A DNA stretch of 64,000 bases from assembly GCF_040907265.1 (NCBI RefSeq), contig NZ_JBFOHP010000002.1, forward strand, positions 7,502,001-7,566,000. Reading direction: 5' to 3'. The translations under genes were made by a program, and so were the position numbers. This DNA is from Streptomyces sclerotialus. Lineage in GTDB: Bacteria; Actinomycetota; Actinomycetes; Streptomycetales; Streptomycetaceae. A model generated the notes under the pieces. The model was not told the origin of the DNA. It made no database searches and was given only the letters and a program-made list of their open reading frames with translations. Positions 19,611 through 52,648 of the stretch are shown here, piece after piece (position 1 is the stretch's first letter; each line of letters starts with the position of its first letter).

Positions 19611-19912
19611 AGAGGCTGCGCGCCACCGAGCGCCAAGGTGTCGATCGCCGGCAGTCGCCGTCCGATCCGGCGCGCGAGGCTCTCGAGGTGCGCGTGGTCG
19701 AGAATCGCGCCGGGCCGTACCGGAGGACGTCGCCCAGTCCGTCGCTGTGGGCGTGGTCGGTCGCGTTCGCCCGTTCGGCTGGGTCGGCCGCCGGCGGAAG
19801 GGCGAGCGCGTCGGCGAGCGTCCGGTCCGACGAGCTCGGTGCGGGCGTACGCGCCAGTGTCTTGTGGACCCTCGTGTCGATGGTGTTGCCGCCGGTGCTC
19901 GTCTGCATCGAG
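19590..19912 (-). pseudogene. Possible eroded gene antiparallel to the decarboxylase end
   Basis: Two minus-strand frames have GC-rich third positions in turn. The first runs from 19912 (VHKTLARTPAP, RTLADALALPPAADPAERA). The signal then moves one frame to ILDHAHLESLARRIGRRLPAIDT, LALGGAQPLHR. Joined by a frameshift they look protein-like, but I do not recognise a family. A chance pattern in GC-rich DNA is a real alternative. Confidence 0.25.
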
Positions 19913-20321: not shown

Positions 20322-21575
20322 ATGGATCAGACGTCCGTGTGTGCCGATGGGTACGAATTCGCCGCCCCGGATTCCTGGGACCGTTTTTCCGACACGGTGG
20401 CACTGGCTTACGGCGGATACGACGCCGCCTCCGCGTATCAGGACGTGCTCGCCGCGGTGTTCGAGCCACAACGCTCGCTGCTCGCGCACCGCGGAGGCCG
20501 CACCTGCGCCACGCTCGCCGTCTACTCCCTCGACATGGGCGTGCCTGGCGGCCGACGCCCCGTCGCCGGCATCAGCTATGTCACCGCGGACCCCGGACAT
20601 CGGCGCCGCGGTCTGATGCGCGGTCTGATGGTGCGCACGTTCGCCCGCCTGCACGAGCGCGGCGAGGAGCCCGTCGCCGCCCTGCACACCACCGAACCGG
20701 CGATTTACGGACGCTTCGGGTTCGGCAGCGCCACCCGCGCGATCCACCTGCGGATTCCGCGCCATGCCCGCGACATGACGCACCCGTACGATGAACCGCC
20801 GCTGCCCGTACGCGTCGTGGACCCCGCGGAGTGCGTCGCGGACATCGCGCGCATCCACCAAGGCGCGCCGGACCGGCGTCCCGGAGCCTTCCACCGCGAC
20901 GATGCGTGGACCCGTCGCGCCTTGTTGGACCTGCCCGAACGCCGCGGCAAGGCAGGCCGCCTGTTGTGCGTGCTCGCCGAGGACCGGGGCGAGAGCAGCC
21001 GACCGCGCGGATACGCGCTGTACTCGCTGACCGCCCGCTGGGAGGACTCCTACCCGCGCTACGACGTCCATGTCCGCGAGCTGTTCGCCGAAGACCCGCT
21101 CGCGTACACGAGCGTATGGCGCGCGTTGCTCGACATCGACCTCGCCGGAGCGGTGCACGCCGACCGGCCCGTCGACGACCCCGTCCTGGCTCTGTTGGCC
21201 GATCCGCGAAGCGCGGTGCCCGTCGTGCGCGATCAGCTCTACGTACGCGTGGTCGACCTCGGACGCGCCCTGCGAGAACGCGGATACGCGGCCGAGGCCG
21301 ACGTGGTGATCGAAGTCGCCGACACTGACTGCCCCTGGAACCAGGGGCGTTGGCGGCTGCGGACCGGCGTCGACGGCGGTGACTGCGCGCGCACCACCGC
21401 GGCCGCGGATCTGTCGCTGTCGGCCTGGGAACTGGGCGCCGTCTATTTGGGAGGTACGTCCCTCAAGCAGCTCGCCGCGGCCGGTCGCGTCACGGAGCAC
21501 CGCGCCGGCGCGGTGGCCGCGACCACACACGCCTTTCATCACGATCCCGCACCGTTCTGCCCGATGCTCTTCTGA
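20322..21575 (+). CDS. Eis-like GNAT N-acetyltransferase (copy 1)
   Basis: 417 residues from the ATG at 20322; a GTG four codons upstream is in frame. The layout is that of the Eis family: an N-terminal GNAT domain (AVAGISYVT-like block, then DPGHRRRGLMRGLM), a second GNAT-like domain, and a C-terminal SCP2-type domain (AAADLSLSAWELGAVYLGG). The protein ends FCPMLF; in Eis the C-terminal carboxylate takes part in catalysis, and the free Phe end fits. Eis enzymes acetylate many amine positions of aminoglycosides and peptides. A paralogue lies at 50642. It follows the PLP decarboxylase on the same strand; a joint role is possible but not shown. Confidence 0.9.
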   Translation: MDQTSVCADGYEFAAPDSWDRFSDTVALAYGGYDAASAYQDVLAAVFEPQRSLLAHRGGRTCATLAVYSLDMGVPGGRRPVAGISYVTADPGHRRRGLMRGLMVRTFARLHERGEEPVAALHTTEPAIYGRFGFGSATRAIHLRIPRHARDMTHPYDEPPLPVRVVDPAECVADIARIHQGAPDRRPGAFHRDDAWTRRALLDLPERRGKAGRLLCVLAEDRGESSRPRGYALYSLTARWEDSYPRYDVHVRELFAEDPLAYTSVWRALLDIDLAGAVHADRPVDDPVLALLADPRSAVPVVRDQLYVRVVDLGRALRERGYAAEADVVIEVADTDCPWNQGRWRLRTGVDGGDCARTTAAADLSLSAWELGAVYLGGTSLKQLAAAGRVTEHRAGAVAATTHAFHHDPAPFCPMLF

Positions 21576-38120: not shown

Positions 38121-38134
38121 TGGGCTCCTTCGAG

Positions 38135-39224: not shown

Positions 39225-39262
39225 CCCGCTCTCCTCGCTGCCGCGTCCCCCGGACCGGCGAA

Positions 39263-39867: not shown

Positions 39868-40884
39868 TCAGGGAAGGGAGCCGGCGGGGGACGTGCTCCC
39901 GGTCGCGGTGGTACGCGCGGCCCGCAGCAGGTCCCAGGCGAGCAGACCGGCGCCGACGCGGCCCGCGCGCTCCCCGAGCGCCGCACACACGATGTCGGGC
40001 AGGACCTGGAAGGCGACCCGGCGCTCCAGGTGGCGCCGCAACGGCACCAGCAGCTGGTCGCCCGCCTGGCTGACGCCGCCGCCCAGGACCAGCACGCCGG
40101 GGTCGAAGAGCGTCACGGCCGCCAGCAGTCCCTCGGCCATGGCGTCCGCCGCCTCGTCCCACACCCGCGCCGCGGCCGGATCGCCCGCGCCCGCCCGGCG
40201 CGCCACCTCGGCCGCGGTCACCGCGGGCCCCGCGCCGCCGGCCGCCGTCCCGCACGCCGCCGCGTACCGCCGGGCGATCGCGGCGCCGCCCGCGAGCGTG
40301 TCCAGGCAGCCGTGCTGCCCGCAGCCGCACGGTTCACCGCCGGGCCGCAGCACCAGATGGCCCAGCTCCGCCGAGCGCCAGTGGCTGCCCGGGAAGGGCA
40401 GGCCGTCGAGCAGCACGGCGCCGCCGACGCCGGTGCCGACGGGGACGAAGAGGACGACGGGGTGGCCCCGGCCCGCGCCGAGCCGGGCCTCGGCGACGCC
40501 GCCGGAGCGCACGTCGTGCCCGAGCACCACGGGCAGCCCCAGCCGCTCCGCGACCAGCCGCCGCAGCGGGACGTCCTGCCACTTGACGACCGAGGAGAAC
40601 ATCACCGTGCCGGCGTCCTCGTCGACCAGCCCGCAGGAGGCGATGCCCGCCGCCCGGACCGTGATGCCGGCGGCCCGCGCCTCGGCGACGGCCCGCTCGG
40701 CATGGTCCAGCACGGCCGTCAGCACGGCGTCCGGGCCGTCGGCCGGGCGGGTGGCGGTGCGGCGTTCGGCGGTGACCGTGCCGTCCGGGGCGACCAGCGC
40801 CGACTTGAGGACGGTGCCGCCGATGTCCAGGCCGAGCACCCGGCCGGTACCGGCCACCGGCGCCTCGCCGTCCGTACGGTTCAC
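39868..40884 (-). CDS. ROK family sugar kinase
   Basis: 338 residues from a GTG at 40884 with AGGAGG upstream. The phosphate loop is LGLDIGGTVLKSALV (17-31), the zinc-site motif CGCGQHGCLD has the ROK pattern CxCGxxGCxE with Asp in place of the last Glu, and LGGGVSQAGD near the C-terminus is the ROK end signature. No DNA-binding domain is present, so it is a kinase rather than a regulator. It lies 61 bases after the diiron-enzyme gene, on the same strand. It may phosphorylate a sugar from the xyloglucan locus, or belong to the coupled operon before it. Confidence 0.9.
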   Translation of the reverse strand: MNRTDGEAPVAGTGRVLGLDIGGTVLKSALVAPDGTVTAERRTATRPADGPDAVLTAVLDHAERAVAEARAAGITVRAAGIASCGLVDEDAGTVMFSSVVKWQDVPLRRLVAERLGLPVVLGHDVRSGGVAEARLGAGRGHPVVLFVPVGTGVGGAVLLDGLPFPGSHWRSAELGHLVLRPGGEPCGCGQHGCLDTLAGGAAIARRYAAACGTAAGGAGPAVTAAEVARRAGAGDPAAARVWDEAADAMAEGLLAAVTLFDPGVLVLGGGVSQAGDQLLVPLRRHLERRVAFQVLPDIVCAALGERAGRVGAGLLAWDLLRAARTTATGSTSPAGSLP

Positions 40885-40900
40885 GACGCCTCCTGATCAC

Positions 40901-40915
40901 GTGACGGCACGTCAC
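40901..40915. promoter_or_regulatory. Palindrome GTGACG-N3-CGTCAC before the ROK gene
   Basis: The repeat lies 17 bases before the ROK start and next to an AT-rich patch (CATTTAACG), so ROK may have its own promoter. A related element is at 9029. Confidence 0.35.
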
Positions 40916-40945
40916 CATTTAACGGGATGCATGCCTTCCGGTCCC

Positions 40946-41977
40946 TTACCCCGCTCCCGGGCCGCGCCACCGTTCGAGGTGGCGCAGCAGCCGGTCGTAC
41001 TGCCGGGTACCCGCGTCGACGGCCAGGTGGGCGCCGCGCAGTACCTGGCAGATCTCGGCGGGCGTCAGCCGGGGGCGCTGGTCGCGCAGCCCCGCGGAGA
41101 GTTCCTCGCTGTGCCGGGGGTCGATGCGGGTGTGTGCGGTGAAGTAGAGGCGGGTGTCCTCGTCGTGCAGGCCCACCCGGTCCATGCCGGCCAGCAGCTG
41201 CCGGAAGTGCGGCTCGACCCAGCTCTCGAAGACGAAGAAGCAGCCGTAGGCGGCCTGGGTGCGGGACGGGCGGGTGAGCAGCGCGGTGAACAGATTGGAG
41301 GTGATCTTGGCGAACCACGGGTGCGCGTCGCGGTACCGGGCCAGTTCCTCCCAGCCGGCGGCGGAGCCGAGCTGGCGGCGCAGCCAGTAGGTGTGGAAGT
41401 TCTCCAGCCGGCCGCGGCCGCACTCGTCCCACAGGTTGGCGGCCGCGACCGCCTTCTGCCGGCCCTGGAGGCCCACGACCAGCAGCGCGACCTCGTCGTC
41501 CACGACTTCGTTGCGGATCAGCTCGCACCGTACGAAGTACTCGATCTGCGCGCGGGTGGCGTCCTCGGCCAGGTAGCGGAAGAGCGGGTGGCAGACGCCG
41601 GTGTTGTCGGCGGCCAGCGCGTCCAGGTGGTCGGCGGCCGCCTCCTGCCCGTCCGGTTCGGGTACCGGCGCCGGCGTGGCCCAGACGTCGATCAGTTCGC
41701 GTTCCAGTCGCGTGCGCGCCGCGAACAGCGCGATCTCCAGGTCGTCGTCACGGGAGCCGTTGGCCGGTCCGTCGCGGTAGCCCAGGGACCGGGAGCAGAG
41801 CGTGGCCAGGTGTTCGTGCAGGAACCTGCCGTGCGCCTCGGGGTCGGTGCGGAGCCGGGCCAGCCGCTCCGCCTGGACATCGGGCGGCGCGCTCAGGAAC
41901 CGGGCCAGCTCCGGGTCCAGCCCCTGGAACGGCCGTACCGGCGGCCAGTACAGGTCCTGGAGGGGCGGGGCGCTCAT
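40946..41977 (-). CDS. Heme-oxygenase-like diiron oxidase/oxygenase (iron-containing redox enzyme family)
   Basis: 343 residues, all helical. The C-terminal half shows the family's metal-binding pattern: RAQIEYFVRCEL (Glu146), NLWDECGRGRLENFH (Glu185, His195), FFVFESWVEPHF (Glu251) and FTAHTRIDPRHSEE (His282, Asp286, His289). Relatives include UndA-like decarboxylases and N-oxygenases in natural-product pathways. AGGGAGGAC precedes the ATG at 41977, whose ATGA overlaps the GMC stop. It probably performs an O2-dependent step late in the pathway of the operon. The exact reaction cannot be read from sequence; the residue assignment is by eye. Confidence 0.82.
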   Translation of the reverse strand: MSAPPLQDLYWPPVRPFQGLDPELARFLSAPPDVQAERLARLRTDPEAHGRFLHEHLATLCSRSLGYRDGPANGSRDDDLEIALFAARTRLERELIDVWATPAPVPEPDGQEAAADHLDALAADNTGVCHPLFRYLAEDATRAQIEYFVRCELIRNEVVDDEVALLVVGLQGRQKAVAAANLWDECGRGRLENFHTYWLRRQLGSAAGWEELARYRDAHPWFAKITSNLFTALLTRPSRTQAAYGCFFVFESWVEPHFRQLLAGMDRVGLHDEDTRLYFTAHTRIDPRHSEELSAGLRDQRPRLTPAEICQVLRGAHLAVDAGTRQYDRLLRHLERWRGPGAG

Positions 41978-43524
41978 CGGAGTCCTCCCTTCTCCGCGAC
42001 ACGCAGCGCGTTGGCGGCGATGGTCAGTCCGGGGTTGACGGCCGCCGACGACGGGAACCACGAGCTGTCGGCGATCCACAGGTTGGCCAGGTCGTGTGCC
42101 TTGCAGTCCGGGTCGACGACGCTGGTGGCCGGGTCGGTGCCGGCGACCGCGGTACCGCACTGGTGCGAGGTGACGTCGATGCCCATGTGCCGCGCCGACA
42201 CCAGCGGGTACCCGGCCCTGCGCATCATCCGGGCGGTCCTGCGCACCAGTTCGCGGTGGGGCGTGAGGTTCACCGGCCGCCGGCCGACCCGGATCGCGCC
42301 GTCCGGGCCGACCGTGACGCGGTTGCCGGGCGCCGGCAGGTCCTCGCTGGTGAGGTAGAGGTCGACGCTGTGCCGGGTGAGGAAGCCCAGCGCCGGGCCG
42401 GGCAGCCGGGGGTGGAGCCCCCGGGCGGTGGCGGGCTGGAGTTTGCCGAGGGTCTGGACGTTGCCCAGCGGGCCGTGCGCGCCGTTCGCCAGGTACCAGT
42501 CGTTCAGGCCCAGGGTCTTCTGGAACACCGTCTCGCTGGGGCGGCGGGGATCGACGGCGACGAGGAAGGTGCTGTTGTGCACCATGTAGTTGCGGCCGAC
42601 CTGCCCGGAGGAGTTCGCCTCACCTTCGGGCCGCCGGTTACGCGAACGCAGCAGCAGCGCCGCCGTGTTCACCGCGCCGCAGGCCAGTACGTAGCGGTCG
42701 GCGCGGATGCGGAGCTCCGTGCCGGCGTGCCGGGCGGCGGCCGCGGTCACCCGCCGCCCCGGCGCGTCCGTCAGCAGCCCGGTCACGACGGTGCGGGTGA
42801 GCAGGGACACGTTTCCCGAGGCCAGCGCGGGCCGCAGCGCGCACACGTCCGCATCGCTCTTGGCGCCCAGCAGGCAGGGGAAACCGTCACAGGTGGCGCA
42901 GCGCACGCAGGCCCCGCCCGGCCGCAGGTCGATGCCGGTGGGCAGGTCGAAGGGGGCCAGGCCCTGGGCGCGCAGCGCGTCGGCCAGCTCGGCGACGGCC
43001 GGCTCGTGCGGCACCGCGGGGTACGGGAAGCCGGCGGAGCGCCAGGGCTCGGTGGGGTCCTGTCCCGCCGTGCCGTGCACCCGGTAGAGCCGCTCGGCCG
43101 CCGCGTAGTACGGCTCCAGCTCCGCGTACGGGAACGGCCAGGCCCGCGAGACGCCCTCCGCGTGCTCCACAGGCCCGAAGTCGGCCTCTCGGAACCGCGG
43201 CAGGGTCGCGCCGAAGACCTTGGTGTTGCCGCCGACGTAGTAGTGGACGCCCGGCTGGAAGCGCCGTCCGGTGTCGGCGTCGTACCACGGCTCGGCGTTG
43301 CGGTACCGCTTCTCGGTGAAGACCGCGTGCGGCGACCAGTTCGCCGCCTCCCGGGGCAGGAAGTCGCCGCGCTCGACGACGAGGACCCGGGCGCCGGAGT
43401 CCCGCAGCGCGTAGGCCAGGGTCGCGCCGCCCATACCGGCCCCGATGACCGCGATGTCGCAGTCCACCTCGGGCCCGTCGGGGCGCAGCAGACCCGGCGG
43501 CTCCGGCGGGTACGTGGCGTTCAT
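41974..43524 (-). CDS. GMC family FAD-dependent oxidoreductase (1)
   Basis: 516 residues. FAD-binding GAGMGG (28-33) and VVERGDFLPRE are N-terminal; a Cys cluster (CVRCATCDGFPC) lies mid-protein. The C-terminal active site has SHQCGTA (His) and AAVNPGLTIAANAL (Asn-Pro), the canonical His/Asn pair of the choline dehydrogenase/glucose oxidase family. It should oxidise an alcohol to an aldehyde or ketone. It overlaps both neighbours by ATGA and follows AAGGAGG. In aminoglycoside pathways a GMC enzyme plus a class III aminotransferase converts CH2OH to CH2NH2, a useful analogy for this operon. Confidence 0.93.
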   Translation of the reverse strand: MNATYPPEPPGLLRPDGPEVDCDIAVIGAGMGGATLAYALRDSGARVLVVERGDFLPREAANWSPHAVFTEKRYRNAEPWYDADTGRRFQPGVHYYVGGNTKVFGATLPRFREADFGPVEHAEGVSRAWPFPYAELEPYYAAAERLYRVHGTAGQDPTEPWRSAGFPYPAVPHEPAVAELADALRAQGLAPFDLPTGIDLRPGGACVRCATCDGFPCLLGAKSDADVCALRPALASGNVSLLTRTVVTGLLTDAPGRRVTAAAARHAGTELRIRADRYVLACGAVNTAALLLRSRNRRPEGEANSSGQVGRNYMVHNSTFLVAVDPRRPSETVFQKTLGLNDWYLANGAHGPLGNVQTLGKLQPATARGLHPRLPGPALGFLTRHSVDLYLTSEDLPAPGNRVTVGPDGAIRVGRRPVNLTPHRELVRRTARMMRRAGYPLVSARHMGIDVTSHQCGTAVAGTDPATSVVDPDCKAHDLANLWIADSSWFPSSAAVNPGLTIAANALRVAEKGGLR

Positions 43525-45011
43525 CGCTGCCTCCTTGCAGGCCCTGTGGCGGGTGGGGTGAGGTACCGGGCGGCGATCTCGTGCGCGAAGGCCATGATCG
43601 TGCCCTGCGGGCTGACACCGGTCGGACCAGGCAGCACGGCGGCGTCGCACAGCCGCAGATTGCGGAAGCCGTACGGGCGGCCGTCCGGGCCGCACACCCC
43701 GCCGCTCCCGGCGGGCCCCATCGGGCACGACGCCATCGCGTGCACGGACACCAGGTCCCAGCCGCGCGGATCGGTCCGCCGCGCGAACTCCTCGGCGGCC
43801 CGGGCCGAGCCCAGCACGCCGGGCGCCGGCGGGTACAGCTCCACGGCCCCGGCCCGGAACAGCAGCCGTGCCGCGCGCACCAGCGCGAAGCGCAGCAGGT
43901 CCACGTCGTGCGCGGCGAGCCGGTGCCGCAGCACGGTCCCCGCGCCGGGGAGCCGGCCGATCCGTACCCGGCCCGTCATCCGCACCTGCACCGTGAAGAC
44001 CGCCACCCGCGCGAGGTCGGCCAGGAGCGCGTCGACCACCGCGGGGCCCTGCCGCACGAGCGCCGCCGCCAGCGAACCGGGCGTGAGGTTGGCGGCCATG
44101 ACGTGAATGCCCAGCCCGCTGAACTCGCCCACCTGGGCGGTGAAGATGGTGCCCCGCTCGGCATGGAGCGGCGAGCCGAAGCGGGCGGGCAGCCGCAGGT
44201 TCACGTGGAAGGCCATGCCGCGGCCCGCCGTCCGGCGGTGGATGCCGCTGCGCTGGAGGAGCGCCGCGCTCCCGACGGCCCCGGCGGCCAGGAAGACCGT
44301 ACGCGGCCGGTACCGCACCGGTGCGCCGTCCGGCCCCACCGCCCGTACGGTGTGCACCGTACCGCCGTCGTGGTCCAGCCGTACGACGCGTACGCCCGGC
44401 TCGATACGGGCGCCGTACCGCTCGGCTTCCGGCAGATAGGTCGTCGCCATGGTCCGCTTGGCGCCGGACGGGCAGCCCGTGGGGCAGCGGTTGCGGTGCG
44501 CGCAGCCTGGTGCCGCGCGTCGGGCGAGCGTCCAGCCCCAGCCCAGGCCCTCGGCGGCCGCCGCCAGCAGCCGGGAGTCCTCGTTGCCCGCACCGTGCCG
44601 CTGCGCGTCCACGGCCAGCCGGCGGGAGATCTCGCTGAGGTGCCCGGCGAGATGGCGGAGACGGTAGCCGTCGGTGCCGCGGGTCTCCGCCCACCGGTCC
44701 AGCAGCCCGGCCGGCGGCTCCCACAGCAGCCCGCCGTTGACCACGGTCGTGCCGCCCACGCAGCGGCCCTCGCCGTAGGGGATGACGGGGCGGCCGAAGA
44801 CGGGGGTGAGGCCCGCGTTGCGGTACAGCCGGCGCAGGCTGTCGGCCGGCGGCAGGGCGGCGAGCTCGGCGGTGGACACCCGCGGGCCTTCCTCCAGCAC
44901 CCGCGGGTGGCGGCCCGCCCGGGCCAGTTCCAGCGCTGCCACGGCCCCGCCCGCTCCCGAGCCGATGACCAGCGCGTCGCACTCGACGGTGCGCGGCGTA
45001 CGGCCGCTCAT
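43521..45011 (-). CDS. GMC family FAD-dependent oxidoreductase (2)
   Basis: 496 residues. FAD-binding GSGAGG (17-22) and GRCVGGTTVVNGG near residue 90. A Cys motif HRNRCPTGCPSGAK is followed by the substrate domain. The C-terminal half has VHAMASCPMG, where GMC enzymes carry the catalytic His, but the usual N-P-x-x-T is SPQGT, so the second catalytic residue is Ser. The type resembles long-chain alcohol oxidases, which carry an extra N-terminal helical domain; here that part may be the separate 137-residue protein encoded just upstream. GGGAG precedes the ATG at 45011, which overlaps the upstream stop by ATGA. Confidence 0.9.
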   Translation of the reverse strand: MSGRTPRTVECDALVIGSGAGGAVAALELARAGRHPRVLEEGPRVSTAELAALPPADSLRRLYRNAGLTPVFGRPVIPYGEGRCVGGTTVVNGGLLWEPPAGLLDRWAETRGTDGYRLRHLAGHLSEISRRLAVDAQRHGAGNEDSRLLAAAAEGLGWGWTLARRAAPGCAHRNRCPTGCPSGAKRTMATTYLPEAERYGARIEPGVRVVRLDHDGGTVHTVRAVGPDGAPVRYRPRTVFLAAGAVGSAALLQRSGIHRRTAGRGMAFHVNLRLPARFGSPLHAERGTIFTAQVGEFSGLGIHVMAANLTPGSLAAALVRQGPAVVDALLADLARVAVFTVQVRMTGRVRIGRLPGAGTVLRHRLAAHDVDLLRFALVRAARLLFRAGAVELYPPAPGVLGSARAAEEFARRTDPRGWDLVSVHAMASCPMGPAGSGGVCGPDGRPYGFRNLRLCDAAVLPGPTGVSPQGTIMAFAHEIAARYLTPPATGPARRQR

Positions 45012-45421
45012 GGCGTGACTCCCGTCGGGACGGAGGGCGGCACGGGCGGAAGCGGGTCCGCGCCCGGCACCAGACGGTCGGGGCCGCCGTCCAGCCCGCC
45101 GTACAGGGCCAGCGCCTCGGCGGCCCGCAGCAGCGGCCCGACCCCCCGCAGCCGCGCCAGCCGCTCGCTCCCGTATGCCAGCGACTCCCCGTCGCACCTG
45201 GTCACCCGCCGCCCGGTGGCCAGGAGGAACGCGAGCGGCACGAGGCGCAGGACGAGCCGGGCGGCGGCCAGGTACGGGCGCGGCCCGGCCCGCAGACTGC
45301 CCGCGACATGGGCAGTGGCGCGCGCCAGGACCGCGCGGTCCCGCAGTACGGGATGGCGCGCGGCCCACACCGCGGGCAGCCCGCTCGCCGTCAGCGCCCG
45401 CTCCACGGACGCGGCACTCAT
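45008..45421 (-). CDS. Small helical protein, possible accessory subunit of GMC oxidoreductase 2
   Basis: 137 residues with ATGA overlaps on both sides (45421 and 45011). It is Leu/Ala/Arg-rich and helical, with RLARLRGVGPLLRAAEALALYGGLD near residues 88-112. This resembles the helical segment (gluconate dehydrogenase subunit 3-like) that precedes the FAD domain in some long-chain alcohol oxidases. A split subunit is an inference from that weak likeness and from the position. It has no Cys motif or signal peptide. Codon use is normal, so it is a real gene. Confidence 0.75.
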   Translation of the reverse strand: MSAASVERALTASGLPAVWAARHPVLRDRAVLARATAHVAGSLRAGPRPYLAAARLVLRLVPLAFLLATGRRVTRCDGESLAYGSERLARLRGVGPLLRAAEALALYGGLDGGPDRLVPGADPLPPVPPSVPTGVTP

Positions 45422-46839
45422 CGCCGGACCGCCTTGTCCCTGGCGAACGCCGCCAGCAGGCGGGGCGCGCCCTGGTCCAGTACGGCGTCCAGCGCCGCCA
45501 GGAACACCTCGACCTCCTTGTCCCCGGCCACCAGCGGCGGCGAGACGATCAGCGGCAGGCCGTGGTTGGAGCCGTAGAACGTCAGCACGTCGTGCTCCCG
45601 GTACAGCGCGGCGATCACGGCCGCGGTGATCAGCTTCAGCCGCAGCCGCGGGTCCCGCGCGAAGGAGCCGGGCAGCAGCCGCAGCACCCGGTCCAGCGCT
45701 GGATGGCCGGCCCGCAGGAACACGCCGTGCAGCGCGCCCCGCCCGGCCGCGCCCGCGACCAGGCCCGGATGCCGCGCCGCGATCCGGGCCAGGCCGGCGG
45801 ACAGCTGCTCGCCGATCCGCACCGCACGCCCGGGATAGTCGTCCTCGACCGCGATCGCGACCGCCTCCAGTGCGGTGACGGTCTCCTCGCCGAAGCCGTA
45901 GTAGGTGGTGCTGTGCAGGGTGGCGTCGGTGAGGTTGTCGTACGCGGCCCGGAACAGCGGCTCGCGCGCGATGTAGCCGGAGATGGACGCCTTGCCGCCG
46001 CCGAAGGACTTGGAGGTGGTGAGCACGTCGGGGACGAGCCCCGGATGGCGCATGAAGTGGAACAGTGTCCCCGTCCTGCCCCAGCCGGTGTAGACCTCGT
46101 CGAAGACGAGCACGATGTCCCGCTCGGTGCACAGCCGCCGCACCTCGCGCAGGAACTCCCCGGAGCACTCGCGCAGCCCGGAGGCGCTGAACGGCTCCAG
46201 CACCACCGCGTACACATCGCTGCCGCCGTCCCCCGTGGTGTGCCGCTCCAGCGCGAGGACGAAGGAGGCGAGGTCGTCGTAGGCGAAGGCGTCGGTGCCC
46301 GGCAGGCCGGGATAGGGGAACGTCACCTCCGGCGAGGCGGTGAGGCTGCCCGCGCCGAGCAGCTTGCCGTGGAAGGCGATGTCGGAGTGGAGGACGGTGC
46401 CGCGGCGGCCGCGGTGGTACTTGTACGCCAGCTTCACCGCGCCCTCGACCGCCTCGGCCCCGGAGTTCGGGAAGTAGCCGATGTTCAGGTCGCCGGGCAG
46501 CAGCTGCGCGAGGTTGTGGGAGAGCGCGGCGACGTAGGGCGAGAGGAAGTTCTTGTGCACCTCCATCGCCTGGCGTTCGGCGAACCGGCGGCGCGCCGCG
46601 AGGATCCGCGGGTGGTTGTGCCCGTGGTTCAGCACGCCGATGCCGCCGGTGAAGTCCAGGATCCGCCGCCCGTCGCGCAGGGTGATCCAGCACCCCTCGG
46701 CACGCTCGGCCAGGTCGTGCCCGAAGCCGAAGGAGCCGAGCAGCGACACCTGGCTGCGGCTGACGTAACGGCGGTAGAGGCCGTGCACCTGACGAGGCGT
46801 CATGTGCAGGCAGTCCTCGGCGGTGAAGAGGTCAGTCAT
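45418..46839 (-). CDS. Class III PLP aminotransferase
   Basis: 473 residues. Signatures include FPNSGAEAVEGAVKLA (123-138), the Asp that holds the PLP ring nitrogen in VLVFDEVYTGWGRTG (243-257), and the PLP lysine in TTSKSFGGGK (Lys277). It is longer than typical ornithine aminotransferases and has an N-terminal extension of about 40 residues. It would aminate an aldehyde or ketone made by one of the GMC enzymes. Its start overlaps the FAD oxidoreductase gene by eight bases. Confidence 0.92.
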   Translation of the reverse strand: MTDLFTAEDCLHMTPRQVHGLYRRYVSRSQVSLLGSFGFGHDLAERAEGCWITLRDGRRILDFTGGIGVLNHGHNHPRILAARRRFAERQAMEVHKNFLSPYVAALSHNLAQLLPGDLNIGYFPNSGAEAVEGAVKLAYKYHRGRRGTVLHSDIAFHGKLLGAGSLTASPEVTFPYPGLPGTDAFAYDDLASFVLALERHTTGDGGSDVYAVVLEPFSASGLRECSGEFLREVRRLCTERDIVLVFDEVYTGWGRTGTLFHFMRHPGLVPDVLTTSKSFGGGKASISGYIAREPLFRAAYDNLTDATLHSTTYYGFGEETVTALEAVAIAVEDDYPGRAVRIGEQLSAGLARIAARHPGLVAGAAGRGALHGVFLRAGHPALDRVLRLLPGSFARDPRLRLKLITAAVIAALYREHDVLTFYGSNHGLPLIVSPPLVAGDKEVEVFLAALDAVLDQGAPRLLAAFARDKAVRR

Positions 46840-48229
46840 GGGCCGCTCCCGTGGTGAGCGGGGCGGGGTGCGCGGGCCGGGCCGCCGCCCGGACGCGGTC
46901 GGCGATCAGCCGGCCGGCCCGCTGCCCGCCCCGGAGGGCGTAGTTGGTGCCCCGGTCCTCGGGGAACACCTGGGCCATGCCGGCCAGGTAGAGACCCGGT
47001 ACGGGGCTCTCGGTGGCGGGGACGGTCCGCGAGTAGTGCCGGGTGATCACCGGCTGGGCGTGCTCCGCGCGCCACACGTGGTACCGGCGCACCCACTCCT
47101 CCCGGAACGCGGGGAACATCCGGCGCAGGTGCAGCAGGCTGTAGCGGTACACCTGGTCGTCCGGCATCCGGTACAGCCCCGCACCGGCCGGCAGGTACTT
47201 CGACAGGTAGACCACGTGGCGTCCCCCGTAGTGCCACGCCGGGTCGAGGTTGGTGTGCTCGATGACGCCGACGTAGGGGAAGCCGGGGTCGCTGACGTTG
47301 AGCCAGTAGGTGTCCGACAGCGGCCGGTCGTTCTCCAGCACCAGGCAGATGTTGGCCAGGTACCGGACCGCCGCGAGCTGCCGCCGCAGGCCCGGCACGG
47401 CCGGGTGGGCATCGTCCTGCCCGGCGAGGAGCGCGGCGGCGGGGCCGGGCGCCGTGGTCACCAGCACCCGCCGCGCCGCGTACCGCGTGCCGCCGGCCCG
47501 TACGCCGGTCACCCCGCCCGGCCCGGCCAGTACCTCCGTGACCGGGCAGGACGTACGGATCCGCACCCCCAGCCGGGCCAGCTCCGGCAGCCAGGCGGCC
47601 AGCAGCGCGCCGCAGCCGCCGCGCAGGTAGTACAGCACCTCGCGCCCCGCGCGGCTGCGGCTGCCGCCGCGCAGGTGCAGCTTGGTCCACATCCAGGTCG
47701 CGCCGACCTCGGGCGCGTACTCCCCGAACTTGCCCGCCAGCAGCGGCCGCCAGACCCGGTCGTACACCCGCCGCCCGGCCAGCCGCACCAGCCACTCCTC
47801 GGCCGTCAGCGCCTCCAGCTCCCGCCAGTGCCGGACCCGGCCGGCCCGCAGCACCGACCGGGCGAGCCGGAACCGGTCCACGACGGGCAGCGGCGCGAAC
47901 CGCGCCACGTCCAGCGGCGTGGACAGCCGGTGGATGCCGCCCGCGTGGTAGAAGCCGGTACGGCCCGCGTGCCGCTCGACGAGACCGCCGCAGCCCAGCT
48001 CGGCGCAGAGCCGGAAGACGTCGGTGTCGGAGGCGAACCAGTGGTGGTAGAAGCGCTCCAGCTGCCGCCCGCCGACCGTGAAGGTGCCCGCGAGCCCGCC
48101 CACCCGGTCGCCGGCCTCCAGGACCAGGCAGCGCAGCCCCGCCCGGCCCAGCTCGTGCGCCGCCGCGAGCCCGGTGAACCCGGCACCGACCACGACGACG
48201 TCCCACCCGTCCCCGGGCGCGGCGCTCAT
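46832..48229 (-). CDS. FAD-dependent amine-oxidase/UGM-like oxidoreductase
   Basis: 465 residues. GAGFTG (15-20) and LEAGDRVGGLAGTF form the FAD fold of the amine oxidase, protoporphyrinogen oxidase and UDP-galactopyranose mutase superfamily. FYHHWFASDT (near 60) and the C-terminal GLYLAGMAQVFPEDRGTNYALRGG are distinctive. From memory, similar proteins are often encoded beside GT2 and DegT genes of glycolipid clusters. It could dehydrogenate, desaturate or isomerise the growing product. It overlaps the GT2 gene by ATGA and the aminotransferase by eight bases. Confidence 0.88.
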   Translation of the reverse strand: MSAAPGDGWDVVVVGAGFTGLAAAHELGRAGLRCLVLEAGDRVGGLAGTFTVGGRQLERFYHHWFASDTDVFRLCAELGCGGLVERHAGRTGFYHAGGIHRLSTPLDVARFAPLPVVDRFRLARSVLRAGRVRHWRELEALTAEEWLVRLAGRRVYDRVWRPLLAGKFGEYAPEVGATWMWTKLHLRGGSRSRAGREVLYYLRGGCGALLAAWLPELARLGVRIRTSCPVTEVLAGPGGVTGVRAGGTRYAARRVLVTTAPGPAAALLAGQDDAHPAVPGLRRQLAAVRYLANICLVLENDRPLSDTYWLNVSDPGFPYVGVIEHTNLDPAWHYGGRHVVYLSKYLPAGAGLYRMPDDQVYRYSLLHLRRMFPAFREEWVRRYHVWRAEHAQPVITRHYSRTVPATESPVPGLYLAGMAQVFPEDRGTNYALRGGQRAGRLIADRVRAAARPAHPAPLTTGAAHD

Positions 48230-49287
48230 CGCGCCGTCCGGACGCGGGGCGTGAGCGGCCGTACGGTCCCGTCCTCCGGCACCTCCGGGGCCGCCGGGGT
48301 GCCGGTCTGCGGCGGGTGGCGCTCCAGCAGGACGTACGGCGGGCGGCCGCGCAGTTCGCGGTGGACCAGCCGCAGGTACTCGCCGAGCAGCCCGAGCAGC
48401 ACCGCCTCGCAGCCGAACGTCCAGGCCGCCAGCGGCAGCCGGTGGCGGCGTACGGCGGCGGTCATGGCCGCGCCGCCCAGCCAGGTGAGGCCGACGACGG
48501 CCGGCATCCGGGCGGGCGCGGGGGAGCAGGACACCAGGCCGCGGCGGGAGAGGTCGGCCATCTTCCGCAGCGAGTACTTCGAGCGGCCGGCCGGGCGCGC
48601 CGGCCGCTCGTACGCCACGCTCGTCTCCGGGAACCCCGCCCAGCACACCGAGCCCCGCAAGTACGGTTCCCCTTCGGGCAGTTCGGTGAGCAGCCGCACG
48701 ACGGACCGGTCCAGCAGCCGGAAGTCGCCGGTGTCCAGCGCCACCGGCTGGTCCGCGAGGGCGGCCAGCAGCCGGTAGTAGACGTGCGCGGTGACCACCT
48801 TGAAGCGGCTCTCCCCGGCCCGTGCGGTCCGCCGGGCCGACACCACCGACCAGCCGGCGCGCCACCGTTCGACCAGCTCGGGGATGAGCTCGGGCGGGTC
48901 CTGGAGGTCGGCGTCCATGGTGATCACCGCGTCCCCGGCCGCGGCGCGCAGTCCGGCGAGTATCGCCTGCTGGTGGCCGAAGTTCCGGGTCAGCCGGACG
49001 AGCCGGACCGCGGGGTCCCCGCCGGCGAGGGAGGTCAGCGTGTACCAGGTGCCGTCCTTGCTGCCGTCGTCGACGTAGACCACCTCGTGGGCGCAGTCCG
49101 GGAGGCGGCCCAGCGCGGCGGTGAGCCGCCGGTGGGTCCGGTCCAGCACCGCCTCCTCGTCGTAACACGGCACCACCACACTGATCAGCGGCGGCCGGCC
49201 GCCCTCCGCACCGGAGGCGCCGGACGTGCCGGACGCGCCGGAGGTACGCGGATTCCCCGGTACCGCCGGGAAGGGGATCGAGGTCAT
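48226..49287 (-). CDS. GT2 family glycosyltransferase (dolichol-phosphate mannose synthase/ArnC type)
   Basis: 353 residues. The GT-A domain has ISVVVPCYDEE (35-45), VVYVDDGSKDGT, and the metal site MDADLQDPPE. The region TGDFRLLDR and the loop PAGRSKYSLRKM are as in ArnC and polyprenyl-phosphate sugar synthases. About two membrane helices follow (WLGGAAMTAA, TFGCEAVLLGLLGEY). It probably places a sugar on a polyprenyl phosphate or other membrane lipid. An ArnB-like DegT aminotransferase gene lies 66 bases upstream, so the pair may handle an amino sugar. Confidence 0.92.
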   Translation of the reverse strand: MTSIPFPAVPGNPRTSGASGTSGASGAEGGRPPLISVVVPCYDEEAVLDRTHRRLTAALGRLPDCAHEVVYVDDGSKDGTWYTLTSLAGGDPAVRLVRLTRNFGHQQAILAGLRAAAGDAVITMDADLQDPPELIPELVERWRAGWSVVSARRTARAGESRFKVVTAHVYYRLLAALADQPVALDTGDFRLLDRSVVRLLTELPEGEPYLRGSVCWAGFPETSVAYERPARPAGRSKYSLRKMADLSRRGLVSCSPAPARMPAVVGLTWLGGAAMTAAVRRHRLPLAAWTFGCEAVLLGLLGEYLRLVHRELRGRPPYVLLERHPPQTGTPAAPEVPEDGTVRPLTPRVRTAR

Positions 49288-49353
49288 GTCGTCTCCTCAC
49301 GTACGTGCGGGGCACCGGCCGGGACGTGGGGCCGGGCCGGTGCCCGTCGTGCG

Positions 49354-50589
49354 TCAGCCCAGTACCTCGTCGGCCGTCGCACGGAAGCGTTCGGCGGCTG
49401 CGGCGATCTCGTCGGGGCCGCTGAACACGTCGACGCCCGCGTCGGCGCCCAGGTAGCTGTCGGACAGGCCCACGGTCAGGGCGACCGCGCGGCCCAGGAC
49501 GTCGTCGGTGCGGGGCAGCGCGCCGGGCCGGAAGTCCTGGCGCGGCCAGGCGGGTTCCGGGCGCCGGGACGGGCAGGACCGGGTGTCGCCCGCGGCCAGC
49601 GCGCGCAGCTCCGGCAGCCCGCCGTAGTAGTGCTTGGGCGAGTGCAGCAGCGTCCTGGTGCCCAGCCGTTTCGCCACCGCCTCGGCCGCGGCCCGCTCCT
49701 CGAAGAGGTGGACCAGCACGGTCGCGCAGTCGCCCGCCGGGTCGTGCGACGGACGGCGGACCAGACCGTCCCGTACGGGGATGAGGGCGGCCAGCGCGTC
49801 CCGCTGGGCCCGGGTGCGGGCCAGCACGGTGTCCAGGCGGGCCAGCTGGGCGCGGGCGACGGCCGCCGTCAGTTCGGTCATCCGCAGGTTCAGGCCCAGC
49901 ATCCGGTCGCCGGGCCCCTCCTCGGCGCGGTACGGGAACCAGCCGTGGTCGTGGAAGCCGTAGGCCCGCTGGAAGGTGTGTTCGTCGGGGGTGAGCAGGA
50001 ACCCGCCGTCGCAGGCCGTGACCACCTTGAACATGTTGAGCGAGAACGCCCCTGCCTGGCCGAAGGAGCCCAGGGGCCGCCCGCGGTACGTCCCGCCGCA
50101 CGCCTGCGCCGCGTCCTCCAGCACCAGCAGCCCCAGCTCGTCCGCGAGGTCCCGCAGCGCGTCCATGTCGCAGGGGGCGCCGAGCATGTGAATCGGCATC
50201 AGCGCCTTGGTGCGCGGGGTGATCCGGGACCGTACGTCCTCCGGGTCCAGGGTCAGCGTCTCGTCGATCTCCGCCACCACGGGCGTGGCCCCGCTGTGGA
50301 CGATCGCGGCGACCGAGGCGACGTAGAGGTACCCGGGCACGACGACCTCGTCGCCGGGCCCGATGTCCAGCGCCGCCAGCGCCGTGACCAGCGCGGAGGT
50401 ACCGCTGTTGACGGACAGGCAGTACGGGCTCGCCAGGCGGCGCGCGGCCTCCTGCTCGAACAGCCGCGTCTGGGTGATCTCGCCGAGCGGGTAGGAGTGC
50501 GCTGCGGTGGAGCGGGACCACGCGTTCAGTACCTGCTGGACGTTCGCGCGTTCTTCGTCCCCGAAGAAGGCATATCCGGGACCGGGCAT
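49354..50589 (-). CDS. DegT/DnrJ/EryC1/StrS family PLP aminotransferase
   Basis: 411 residues. Signatures are SGTSALVTALAALDIGPGDEVVVP (62-85), EDAAQACGGTYRGRPLG (158-173) and the PLP lysine in FSLNMFKVVTACDGG (Lys188). The family transaminates nucleotide-bound keto sugars or cyclitols. GGAG precedes the ATG at 50589. Together with the class III enzyme at 45418, the operon has two different aminotransferase types, which suggests a product with at least two amine sites or an amino sugar plus an aminated chain. Confidence 0.93.
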   Translation of the reverse strand: MPGPGYAFFGDEERANVQQVLNAWSRSTAAHSYPLGEITQTRLFEQEAARRLASPYCLSVNSGTSALVTALAALDIGPGDEVVVPGYLYVASVAAIVHSGATPVVAEIDETLTLDPEDVRSRITPRTKALMPIHMLGAPCDMDALRDLADELGLLVLEDAAQACGGTYRGRPLGSFGQAGAFSLNMFKVVTACDGGFLLTPDEHTFQRAYGFHDHGWFPYRAEEGPGDRMLGLNLRMTELTAAVARAQLARLDTVLARTRAQRDALAALIPVRDGLVRRPSHDPAGDCATVLVHLFEERAAAEAVAKRLGTRTLLHSPKHYYGGLPELRALAAGDTRSCPSRRPEPAWPRQDFRPGALPRTDDVLGRAVALTVGLSDSYLGADAGVDVFSGPDEIAAAAERFRATADEVLG

Positions 50590-50641
50590 GAAGGGCTCCG
50601 TGAAGGTCGGCGGGGTGGGGCGGCCTGTCGCGTGCGGCGCG

Positions 50642-51907
50642 TCAGAAGACGACGGGGCAGAACGGTGCCGGGTCGTGGCGGAAGGCGGCCGCGGCGGCGC
50701 GGACCGCGCCGGGGCGCAGTTCCGTCACCCGGCCGGCCAGCGCGAGCTGGGTGACGGAGCCGCCGCCCAGCAGCAGGCTGCCCAGCTCCCGCGCCGTGAG
50801 TGCCAGGTCGGCGGCCGCGCGGGTGCGGACGCAGTCGGCTTCCGCGGGGCCCGTGATGAGCCGCCACCGCCCTTCGTTCCAGGGGCAGAGCGGATCGCTC
50901 ACCTCCAGTACGAGCTCGGTCTCGACGGCGTAGCCGCGGCCGGCCAGCGCGCGGTCGACGTCGACGGCGCGGGCGTACAGCTGGTCGCGCACGGTGGGCG
51001 CGGCGCTGCGCGGGTCGGTGAGCAGGGCCAGCACCGGGTCGTCGACCGGGCGGGCGTTCGCGGTGACGGTGCCGCCGAGATCGATGTCCAGCAGTGCCCG
51101 CCAGAGCAAGGCGTAGCCGGCCGGGTCGGTCGCGCCCAGGTCGTGGACGGAGACGGTGTACCGGGGGTAGGAGCGGGTCCAGCCGGCGGTGAGCCGGTAG
51201 AGGGCGTAGCCGCGCGGGCCCGTGCCGTCCGTCGCCAGCATGCACAGCAGGCGTCCGGCGCCGCCGCGGTCGGCCGGCGGGTCGGCGAGGGAACGGCGCA
51301 GCCAGGCACCCTCCCGGCGGAGCATCCCGGGGCGCTCGCCCAGGCAGCCGCGGCACACCGCCGCGACGGCGGCCTCGGCCTCGGCGGGGGAGGTGACGTC
51401 CAGGGTGAGCGGGGGACCGCCGTCCGCCGGGATCTCGGCCAGCTCCCGCGCCTCCACGGGGACGGCGAGGCTGACGGCCTGGCTGGCCGTGCCGAAGCCG
51501 AGGCGGCCGTAGATGCCCGGCTCGGTGGAGTTCAGGACCGCGACCGGCTCGGCCCGGGCCGTGTGCAGGTCGGTGAGGGTGCGCCGGACCAGTTCGCGCA
51601 TCAGGCCGCGCCGCCGGTGCGCGGGGGAGACGGCCACGTAGCCGAGGCCGAACACCGGGCTCGGTCCGGCGCCGGGCAGCGTCATCTCCAGGGAGTAGCC
51701 GGCCAGCGTGGCGCAGGGCCCGTCCGCCGTGCGGGCGAGCAGCGAGCGCTTGGGCTCCAGCAGCTCGGCGACGACCGCGCGGTGGTCCGGCGAATGGTCG
51801 TACCCGCCGTAGGCCAGACCCACCACGCCGGCGAAATCGGACCAGTCGTCAGGAGGCCGGAACTCATAATCCGGAGAACCCGGAGAACGCTGTGAGGAAG
51901 AATGCAC
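50642..51907 (-). CDS. Eis-like GNAT N-acetyltransferase (copy 2), first gene of the coupled operon
   Basis: 421 residues from the GTG at 51907, which follows GGAGGT. The architecture and many blocks match copy 1 at 20322: YEFRPPDDWSDFAGVVGLAYGGYD at the N-terminus, VSPAHRRRGLMRELV (acetyl-CoA loop), the SCP2-like C-domain (AAADLALTARELGSLLLGG) and the end FCPVVF. Eis proteins acetylate amines on aminoglycosides. At the head of an operon with two aminotransferases it is a good candidate for self-protection or for N-acylation of the product. It is 52 bases upstream of the DegT gene. An 18-bp palindrome lies just before it. Confidence 0.9.
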   Translation of the reverse strand: MHSSSQRSPGSPDYEFRPPDDWSDFAGVVGLAYGGYDHSPDHRAVVAELLEPKRSLLARTADGPCATLAGYSLEMTLPGAGPSPVFGLGYVAVSPAHRRRGLMRELVRRTLTDLHTARAEPVAVLNSTEPGIYGRLGFGTASQAVSLAVPVEARELAEIPADGGPPLTLDVTSPAEAEAAVAAVCRGCLGERPGMLRREGAWLRRSLADPPADRGGAGRLLCMLATDGTGPRGYALYRLTAGWTRSYPRYTVSVHDLGATDPAGYALLWRALLDIDLGGTVTANARPVDDPVLALLTDPRSAAPTVRDQLYARAVDVDRALAGRGYAVETELVLEVSDPLCPWNEGRWRLITGPAEADCVRTRAAADLALTARELGSLLLGGGSVTQLALAGRVTELRPGAVRAAAAAFRHDPAPFCPVVF

Positions 51908-51932
51908 AGGGCACCTCCGACCGATTCCGGAT

Positions 51933-51950
51933 GATGCCCGTACGGGCATC
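51933..51950. promoter_or_regulatory. Perfect 18-bp palindrome before the ten-gene operon
   Basis: GATGCCCGTACGGGCATC equals its own reverse complement. It ends 26 bases before the GTG of Eis copy 2, a normal operator position. No regulator gene is part of the operon, so the binding protein is unknown. Confidence 0.75.
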
Positions 51951-52336: not shown

Positions 52337-52648
52337 ATGAAAAACGGCAAGCTCGTTTCCGGTAAGACCGTGCCCGGCGAGGGATGGAAAAACTATCCCG
52401 ACCGTAACGGTGACGGCGTGTACATCGATGTCGACACTTCGGAAGGGGGGTTCACCAGCACCCCCGTATACATCCCGGCCCTCACCGGTGACGACCGTAT
52501 GTGGATGACCACGGGCGGCAACACGGTCTACAACGCCACCCCGACCGGTTTCCGCGTCTACGTGCGCCGGGTGGACCGGCAGCCCATCGACCCCGCGTAC
52601 GCCGCCAAGAACGGCTGGCACATCGCCTGGATCGCGGCCGAGGCCTGA
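52337..52648 (+). CDS. Small conserved hypothetical protein
   Basis: 103 residues from the ATG at 52337 with GGGAG upstream. No signal peptide. The blocks YIDVDTSEGGFTSTPVYI, MTTGGNTVYNATPTGFRVYV and WHIAWIA form a beta-rich domain I have seen in other actinobacterial and phage-associated proteins, where the pattern DVDTSxxGFTxTPxYxxSLxG recurs. Its function is unknown; a lectin-like or assembly fold is possible. A strong terminator follows. Confidence 0.8.
   Translation: MKNGKLVSGKTVPGEGWKNYPDRNGDGVYIDVDTSEGGFTSTPVYIPALTGDDRMWMTTGGNTVYNATPTGFRVYVRRVDRQPIDPAYAAKNGWHIAWIAAEA

Follow-up and report, generated by a model that had tools for sequence, protein, structure and literature searches.

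What might ten genes of Streptomyces sclerotialus, among them two aminotransferases, two GMC oxidoreductases and a glycosyltransferase, be making together? They lie on the minus strand at 39868-51949 of the window (the whole 64,000-nucleotide stretch of DNA that was analysed), and the gene calls and third-position G+C periodicity, which each of the ten displays, bear out the first-pass annotation in placing them all on one strand. The operon looks like a unit that is conserved in related actinomycetes and matches no pathway that we found; it is apparently built to oxidize and aminate a sugar, perhaps on a membrane lipid. It had been put forward as a candidate undescribed operon, and no description of it was found in the open-access literature, by searching that was mostly narrow and cannot prove absence. 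The genes, in transcriptional order and followed by a divergent neighbor, are:

50642..51949, minus strand: Eis-like N-acetyltransferase (GNAT + SCP2_2, Pfam); start uncertain
49354..50589, minus strand: DegT-family PLP aminotransferase (Pfam, 244 bits)
48226..49287, minus strand: GT2 of GtrB/PgfS/ArnC type, a polyprenyl-phosphate glycosyltransferase by homology; core
46832..48229, minus strand: FAD oxidoreductase, PRK07233/amine-oxidase family (NCBIfam NF005560); core
45418..46839, minus strand: AT3, class III PLP aminotransferase, PigE/putrescine-aminotransferase-like (Pfam, 188 bits); core
45008..45421, minus strand: small all-helical protein of no known family, with a hydrophobic stretch near residues 50-70; core
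43521..45011, minus strand: GMC oxidoreductase 1 (GMC1; Pfam GMC); core
41974..43524, minus strand: GMC oxidoreductase 2 (GMC2; Pfam GMC), sugar/polyol dehydrogenase-like
40946..41977, minus strand: haem-oxygenase-like diiron (HDO) enzyme (PF14518); optional
39868..40884, minus strand: ROK sugar kinase (Pfam, 196 bits); optional
52337..52648, plus strand: f1, 103 aa, of a family without known name; upstream of the operon, divergent from it, and overlooked in the first pass

Six junctions overlap by 4 or 8 bp, as had been claimed: on the minus strand, 48229/48226 (4 bp), 46839/46832 (8 bp), 45421/45418 (4 bp), and 45011/45008, 43524/43521 and 41977/41974 (4 bp each). These overlaps link core genes with accessory genes; gaps separate Eis from DegT (52 bp), DegT from GT2 (66 bp) and the diiron gene from ROK (61 bp). 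Gene overlaps are frequent in Streptomyces, and the overlaps by themselves are therefore not beyond expectation; unlike them, the conservation of the operon is. A pattern scan picked up a single terminator-like site, where 2.2 were expected, and nothing resembling a promoter. Minus-strand TTA triplets fall within operon genes at 46766, 49163 and 51867, none of the three in frame when checked by hand. The Eis gene has candidate starts at 51949 (ATG), 51907 (GTG) and 51826 (GTG), the last being the gene caller's choice. Directly downstream of the operon in the window lies a glycoside-utilization block (GH3, GH31, GH12, ABC, LacI).

The window-type operon occurs in 12 strains of Streptomyces and Embleya, the window's included, so that its genes are indeed conserved together in relatives; their scattering had been named in the first-pass annotation as what would speak against the operon. 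Its idea of a dedicated ten-gene unit holds in this respect, and gives way in another: the unit is divisible, and upstream it is larger. The five-gene core, GT2-FAD-AT3-small protein-GMC1, recurs in identical order in 11/11 further loci, while Eis, DegT, GMC2, diiron enzyme, ROK and f1 were found in none of 11 core-only loci within fetched stretches of 19-20 kb. DegT and GMC2 go together: all ten window-type loci that can be seen in full and have no deletion contain both, and the 11 core-only loci contain neither. Eis, DegT, GMC2 and f1 travel together as a second module; the diiron enzyme (8/12 window-type strains) and ROK (9/12) are optional members. We assign f1 to the system because it adjoins the operon in every locus with that side visible (11/11), and it is found at 86-100% identity in 5/392 Streptomyces genomes, the same five that carry the window-type operon. 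Pfam gives nothing for f1 even at E 10, and its likeness to H-type lectins, an impression gained by eye, was set aside. The loci show the genes, their families, their conserved order and the two-module structure directly.

Across 15-19 loci, the distances computed for the five core proteins are correlated with one another (r 0.82-0.96; 0/999 permutations as high), as shared ancestry of the strains would also bring about. Composition varies around the modules: the CBMA156 locus is without GT2; MFS and GH35/LacI genes accompany the core in some loci; in Embleya the operon is joined by genes for a PLP decarboxylase, a PNPOx-like protein and an NRPS-like protein of A-T-R type; loci of the S. rimosus group have SbnA-family, NCS1 permease and PNPOx-like genes, the SbnA (2,3-diaminopropionate) cut-off being passed in the S. 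rimosus-type form (399.1 bits vs 349.95, for the single f5 protein scored out of five). GMC1 homologues at 35-39% identity were rejected as the same system (other core genes in 0/6 neighborhoods fetched, of 13). GMC2 homologues at 62% identity or less (71 of the 80 loci kept from 248) have neither GMC1 nor the small protein within the DNA fetched around them.

Pfam backs the families named in the first pass (Eis-type GNAT+SCP2_2, DegT, GT2, Amino_oxidase, class III aminotransferase, two GMC, Haem_oxygenas_2, ROK), gives no match for the small protein, and does not sustain one label, the "UGM" half of "UGM/amine-oxidase-like": the flavoprotein matches Amino_oxidase and NF005560/PRK07233 (447.9 bits, cut-off 252), no UDP-galactopyranose-mutase (GLF) domain appears among the Pfam matches listed or the best 25 of 49 NCBIfam matches, and mutase identity was accordingly rejected. 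Relatives of this protein stand beside a GT2 in three of five non-own matches (two strong, one weak) in a 149-genome sample of the phylum, with a flippase-like LPG_synthase_TM gene between them in two of those three genomes; of the other two matches, one is by eye near a sugar-nucleotidyltransferase-like gene and one is without clear context. The GT2 itself aligns with the solved protein sll0501, which we take to be GtrB, at 184 bits (sll0501 residues 28-326 with 35-320 of 353), a near full-length homology of GtrB type that includes the C-terminal region. It scores 202 bits against NCBIfam PgfS (cut-off 500) and lies under every NCBIfam equivalog cut-off among the matches listed; its hydropathy peaks near 261-302 (1.57 and 1.47) do not exceed the peaks seen in GMC1 and DegT (1.63, 1.55) and do not demonstrate membrane helices.

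AT3, in which K277 (located by motif position) is presumably the PLP lysine, has its best NCBIfam scores, among the matches listed, with aminotransferases of non-sugar aldehydes (PigE, at 234 bits under a cut-off of 850, and putrescine). A Nonomuraea relative (62%) shares a tight operon with an SDR gene and a UbiA gene, the latter closest to decaprenyl-phosphate phosphoribosyltransferase (DPPR synthase; 185.7 bits, under the cut-off of 234). The small protein, aligned across 16 sequences, gives an AF2 model with pLDDT 87 and pTM 0.73; a profile search returned 53 matches including itself, nearly all of those named being a "hypothetical protein" of Streptomyces or Kitasatospora, and its apparent fusion to GMC1 (P0173) looks like a frameshift artefact. 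The GMC catalytic pair is usually His plus Asn or His. GMC1 keeps H424 and has Ser (S467) in the second place in 21/21 aligned homologues; GMC2 keeps both H454 and N497 (11/11), and its solved relatives are the large subunits of fructose and glucose dehydrogenases (112-116 bits).

Of the accessory enzymes, the closest solved relative of DegT by sequence is 8-amino-3,8-dideoxy-manno-octulosonate transaminase, which we take to be KdnA (206.5 bits, residues 4-376); K188, within SLNMFK, is presumably its PLP lysine. The Eis-like protein passes subfamily NF002367 (412 bits, cut-off 259) and falls short of the Eis equivalog NF002368 (186.2 bits, cut-off 576); its best solved relative is Eis2 (207 bits). 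The diiron protein belongs to the HDO family (PF14518, 98.7 bits vs 28.9; His/carboxylate motifs kept in 8/8), with candidate metal ligands taken from alignment with HrmI rather than from structure; HrmI is the only solved relative found, a weak one (41.8 bits over 218 residues). The ROK kinase is 51% identical to another of the same genome.

We read the operon, with a probability of about 0.45, as a dedicated specialized-metabolism pathway that would convert a sugar or polyol to a multiply aminated product and include lipid-linked core steps; the earlier guess of "a glycolipid or aminated polyol" is compatible with this reading, whose two oxidase/aminotransferase pairs are our interpretation of the gene content. 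In the core, GT2 would attach to polyprenyl phosphate a hexose donated by a nucleotide sugar, the FAD enzyme and/or GMC1 would oxidize a hydroxyl of the membrane-bound sugar to a carbonyl, and AT3 would turn the carbonyl into an amine, with the small protein assisting, perhaps in partnership with GMC1. Window-type operons would add a second pair, in which GMC2 makes a further carbonyl for DegT to aminate, a step that we liken to the action of KdnA, which aminates a free sugar acid. The Eis-like enzyme would then N-acetylate an amine, either to tailor the product or to protect the producer; N-oxygenation of that amine may fall to the diiron enzyme; ROK would phosphorylate a sugar precursor or the product. 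A polyprenyl-phosphate sugar may be the starting point of the core because the GT2 is GtrB-like, FAD relatives lie beside GT2 genes, and the Nonomuraea AT3 lies beside a DPPR-synthase-like UbiA. In favor of the reading as a whole also speak the fixed order and correlated distances of the core, the joint occurrence of DegT and GMC2, and the sugar loci in which GMC2 homologues lie. Against the lipid link count the GT2 scores below cut-offs, its unremarkable hydropathy and its absence from the CBMA156 locus; against the reading as a whole count the missing second catalytic residue of GMC1 and the fact that AT3 scores best with families acting on non-sugar aldehydes.

The mycobacterial decaprenyl-phosphoryl-arabinose route, which uses UbiA, DprE1 and DprE2, sets the precedent of flavoenzyme oxidation of a polyprenyl-phosphate sugar, and the Nonomuraea operon ties AT3 to such chemistry. 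DprE1 is of FAD_binding_4 type, unlike the Amino_oxidase/PRK07233 enzyme here, and transamination would replace reduction. That the core is a new amino-sugar route of this kind (hexose on polyprenyl phosphate, DprE1-like oxidation, transamination on the lipid carrier), a cassette that has been paired with one tailoring module or another (MFS and GH35/LacI genes in some loci; GMC/DegT, Eis and a possible N-oxygenase in the window; decarboxylase and A-T-R in Embleya), strikes us as rather doubtful. To our knowledge, transaminating a sugar while it is lipid-linked would be without precedent in sugar chemistry. The 8-amino-Kdo pathway of Shewanella, KdnA/KdnB, likewise proceeds by oxidation and then sugar transamination, with the KdnA-type enzyme closest to DegT among solved structures; KdnB is another kind of dehydrogenase than the GMC flavoenzymes that would make the carbonyl here, and the operon has no Kdo context. 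gutB1 is the third gene of the bacterial azasugar cluster. That cluster has three genes, including gabT1 and yktC1 (PMC8382821). The operon has in common with it an aminotransferase plus an alcohol-oxidizing enzyme; Pfam finds neither phosphatase nor zinc-type alcohol dehydrogenase families among the ten genes, and for want of the phosphatase, identity with it was rejected. HrmI/BelK, described as a lysine N-oxygenase of the HDO family (PMC13108848), shares that family with the weakly similar diiron protein.

A pathway to an antibiotic that is a free amino sugar or amino polyol, similar to an aminoglycoside except that it has no cyclitol, would use soluble substrates, with GT2 acting on a small acceptor and Eis and ROK conferring self-resistance by N-acetylation and O-phosphorylation. 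We consider it somewhat unlikely. Both resistance candidates are inside the operon, DegT is nearest an octulosonate transaminase, the S. rimosus group adds its SbnA-family, permease and PNPOx-like genes, and aminoglycosides receive their 6'-amines from a GMC oxidase working with an aminotransferase of class III. Eis, ROK and the diiron enzyme (with SbnA and A-T-R in relatives), all expected to be soluble, are easier to reconcile with a free product than with one held in the membrane, which counts against our preferred reading. The NeoQ/NeoB-type pair, compared by description, resembles the operon in those two families, and differs in that the operon has no DOI synthase candidate and has an extra GT2, FAD enzyme and small protein. 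The GT2, too, is of polyprenyl-phosphate type by homology, and a whole-genome PF01761 search for a DOI/valiolone synthase gave one DHQ-synthase-family match, at C2:1.73 Mb, far outside the window; a 2-deoxystreptamine or C7-cyclitol cluster was rejected, such a gene being absent from the cluster.

If instead the core made a polyprenyl-phosphate aminosugar for a wall polymer, with the accessory genes a neighboring pathway, the GtrB-like GT2, the FAD homologues near GT2 and flippase-like genes, and the Nonomuraea AT3-SDR-UbiA operon would fit. Such envelope modification is unlikely in view of its sparse distribution (GMC1 in 15/392 Streptomyces genomes at E 1e-60 or better), the overlaps joining core to accessory genes, and the lack of a GT-C transferase recognized by Pfam among the ten genes. 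An amino-lipid or hopanoid-type pathway, with AT3 and the FAD enzyme acting on an isoprenoid or fatty aldehyde, is very improbable: the FAD enzyme resembles HpnE (92 bits), AT3 scores highest with PigE and the Nonomuraea SDR resembles HpnA (83 bits), all far under the curated cut-offs (283, 850 and 368), and GMC2 and ROK are sugar-type. More improbable still is an operon for the catabolism of a sugar or polyol. In 9/10 loci viewed by eye, outside GMC2 homologues have LacI, sugar transporters or sugar kinases close by, a ROK gene is inside the fetched stretch in 13/71, and the glycoside-utilization block just downstream in the window is also 3' of the operon in S. violens, S. niger and S. ochraceiscleroticus; the block is absent there in the S. 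rimosus group, CBMA156 and Embleya, Pfam finds no importer family among the ten genes, and two aminotransferases, an N-acetyltransferase and a diiron enzyme are ill-suited to catabolism.

If the aminated-product reading is true, a few percent of Streptomyces (15/392 sampled genomes) encode an amino-sugar metabolite family in clusters that have no PKS, terpene or cyclitol genes and that could escape rule-based finders. For searching, the small protein and f1 offer themselves as handles. A sugar amine as substrate of an HDO enzyme would extend the range of that family, whose characterized members mostly use fatty acids or amino acids (PMC13108848).

Pieces of an Embleya-type cluster, one of them decayed, lie elsewhere in the window, at 18348-21575:

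18348..19610, plus strand: PLP fold-III (DAP/ornithine-type) decarboxylase, open frame, Embleya-type, outside the operon
19861..19985, minus strand: decayed f1 piece in two frames (tblastn with CBMA156 f1: 86% over 14 aa, 67% over 30 aa)
20310..21575, plus strand: second Eis-like gene, open frame, 70% identical to Embleya hyalina Eis

The decarboxylase is 69-71% identical to one beside A-T-R and f1 in Embleya hyalina and was found in 3/11 handles searched, which represent 10 distinct genomes, so that the window type can do without it.

Gene calling in this 72.4% G+C stretch of the 8.28-Mb genome (G000:C2:7502001-7566000) relied on third-position G+C, on start codons and on a simple codon score, with no trained gene finder. 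The gene calls reproduce the ten minus-strand genes of the first-pass annotation, and exactly its six overlaps from 48229 to 41974: five of these successive overlaps are of 4 bp and one is of 8 bp, and the other three junctions of the operon are gapped (52, 66 and 61 bp). A pattern scan for transcript ends saw no promoter-like site, and one terminator-like site against 2.2 expected. The order is Eis, DegT, GT2, FAD, AT3 (a class III PLP aminotransferase), a small protein, the GMC oxidoreductases GMC1 and GMC2, diiron and ROK. The ends of the run, and a divergent gene that had been overlooked, are:

52337-52648, plus strand: f1, 103 aa, divergent, upstream of the operon
50642-51949, minus strand: Eis, first gene of the ten-gene run
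39868-40884, minus strand: ROK, last gene of the ten-gene run

The family names originally proposed match Pfam and NCBIfam, except that the flavoprotein FAD is placed by both in PRK07233/Amino_oxidase, and its UGM-like label is rejected. Adjoining the operon, at 28973-39332, is a glycoside-utilisation block with GH12, GH31, a sugar ABC transporter, a GH3 with CBM6 and a LacI regulator.

The best description of the operon is in two parts: a five-gene core shared with other loci (GT2, FAD, AT3, small protein and GMC1), and an accessory module, which by predicted role would bring a further oxidase/aminotransferase pair together with enzymes that tailor amines. GMC1 is found at E 1e-60 or better in 15 of 392 Streptomyces genomes (three candidates scored per genome among the matches listed). 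Five of these genomes carry the operon in the window's form, and ten carry another type with GMC1 at 58-61% identity. In these ten loci and one from another family (genome G714), tblastn finds all five core genes (11/11), and finds Eis, DegT, GMC2, diiron, ROK and f1 in none (0/11) within the 19-20 kb fetched for each. Gene order in the core-only loci is identical, often down to the 4- and 8-bp overlaps. The small-protein gene was overlooked by gene calling in four fetched loci (L025, L027, L125 and L127) and recovered by tblastn in all four. In the protein searches, scoring covered the 8000 candidates with the most shared words. For the five core proteins, pairwise distances are correlated (r 0.82-0.96), which is compatible with co-inheritance; common descent of the strains would give the same correlation. 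In 7 of the 10 core-only Streptomyces loci the gene after GMC1 belongs to a single family, assigned to MFS by Pfam from one tested member, and in G714 GMC1 is followed by a similar gene, judged by eye. Counted by family, with one or two members per family tested against Pfam, GH35-family genes lie near the core in 5 of the 11 core-only loci (L119, L122, L123, L127 and L145) and a LacI-type gene in the same loci other than L122 (4/11). The GH35 genes beside the core in those five loci are of the beta-galactosidase family.

The window's form is also conserved: 12 strains carry it. In the GMC2 search of named genomes, which kept 80 of 248 related stretches, GMC1 adjoins GMC2 in 9 (GMC2 identity 69-92%), with the small protein present in 8 of them by tblastn and in the ninth, L028, by gene call; the remaining 71 (identity 52-62%) have neither GMC1 nor the small protein within the fetched stretch. 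These nine stretches, genome G036, Embleya sp. NBC_00888 and the window make up the 12, the others being S. violens, S. niger, S. ochraceiscleroticus, Streptomyces sp. CB02923, S. rimosus NRRL WC-3904, S. monomycini, Streptomyces sp. CBMA156, Streptomyces sp. SID3343 and Embleya hyalina. Eight of the 12 carry the diiron gene and nine carry ROK, which in 3 of those nine is on the opposite strand. GT2 is absent from the CBMA156 locus, and the SID3343 locus is truncated at a contig end. Compared with S. ochraceiscleroticus, S. violens has lost a stretch of ~3.9 kb that starts within Eis and ends within FAD (L021, about 5566-6073); unless this is an assembly error, it is a natural deletion strain. 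The divergent f1 lies upstream of the operon in all 11 loci in which that side is visible. It is matched at 86-100% identity in 5 of 392 Streptomyces genomes, the same 5 that have the window-type operon (the f1 and GMC1 draws were two same-size searches whose listed handles coincide); two weaker relatives lie at 6.78 Mb in the window genome (52%) and in genome G395 (44%). Genes, families, order and co-occurrence are directly observed. The operon is real and conserved, and it apparently has no description in the open-access literature, which was searched narrowly.

What the operon makes is approached through its enzymes, and we infer every catalytic step of the proposed pathway. The enzymes point to possible sugar chemistry on a lipid carrier, because of the likeness of GT2, the company that FAD keeps with GT2 genes and an AT3 operon in Nonomuraea. 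GT2 is nearest, over almost its entire length, to sll0501 (GtrB) and to PgfS, with a score under every NCBIfam cut-off listed. FAD is matched at E 1e-40 in 5 other genomes of a 149-genome phylum sample: in two loci (L181 and L182) one LPG_synthase_TM gene separates the FAD homologue from a GtrB-like GT2, in L183 it adjoins a weaker GT2, in L185 it is followed, by eye, by a sugar-nucleotidyltransferase-like gene, and the neighbourhood of the fifth (L184) gives no clear picture. AT3 has a 62% identical relative in Nonomuraea, one of two records at E 1e-100 in a plasmid-collection search; in Nonomuraea gerenzanensis (L186, 11992-15462) the AT3-like gene is tightly packed in one operon with genes for an epimerase-type SDR and for a UbiA that is nearest decaprenyl-phosphate phosphoribosyltransferase, with a score under that model's cut-off. 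This three-gene operon may be a minimal relative of the core. Against the lipid carrier, however, hydropathy does not set GT2 apart as a membrane protein, and several of its operon partners should be soluble.

GMC2 resembles the fructose/glucose dehydrogenase type and has both catalytic residues; of its homologues outside the operon, 9 of 10 lie, judged by eye, close to genes for LacI, sugar transport or sugar kinases, the tenth (L096) showing nothing clear. GMC1 (43521-45011) keeps the catalytic His and has Ser (S467), in 21 of 21 aligned cassette proteins, at the second position, usually Asn or His in GMC enzymes. Among solved structures, DegT is nearest to KdnA, the 8-amino-3,8-dideoxy-manno-octulosonate transaminase. 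Eis scores within the wider Eis subfamily and not as the Eis equivalog. The diiron protein belongs to the HDO family. By sequence, HrmI is the one solved relative that it has; HrmI is a lysine N-oxygenase (PMC13108848), which suggests, short of proof, N-oxygenation as the reaction of the diiron protein.

The operon also occurs in extended forms. CB02923, S. rimosus, S. monomycini and G036, which make up the S. rimosus group, share additional genes: one for an SbnA-family enzyme, between GMC2 and diiron, and those for an NCS1 permease and a PNPOx-like protein, after ROK (families assigned on the G036 members); the permease is also in S. niger. In both Embleya strains an NRPS-like protein, A-T-R (adenylation, carrier, thioester reductase), and f1 diverge from Eis-GMC2, with a PLP decarboxylase beyond A-T-R, and at the far end ROK and a PNPOx-like gene are convergent. 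In CBMA156 A-T-R adjoins f1, and the decarboxylase lies ~5 kb past the other end. The window genome holds A-T-R and paralogues of f1, ROK and the PNPOx-like gene, pieces of the Embleya form, at 6.78 Mb, ~0.73 Mb from the window (L159, G000:C2:6771000-6790900). Among six genomes searched, A-T-R is matched at ~60% identity over almost the entire protein only in E. hyalina and CBMA156, and at 40% at most in the other four. A search of 11 handles, which stand for 10 distinct genomes, gave the decarboxylase in 3. L159 also encodes two styrene-monooxygenase-like proteins and one protein with a sub-threshold GSP_synth match only. Further pieces of a second, Embleya-type cluster version lie in the window, at 18348-21575:

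18348-19610, plus strand: PLP decarboxylase
19861-19985, minus strand: decayed f1 piece
20310-21575, plus strand: second Eis-like gene

The operon's ROK shares 51% identity with a further ROK kinase that this genome encodes. S. violens and S. ochraceiscleroticus have no operon ROK and carry a ROK/PNPOx pair elsewhere in the genome (L179 and L180), 81-86% identical to the pair at 6.78 Mb in the window genome.
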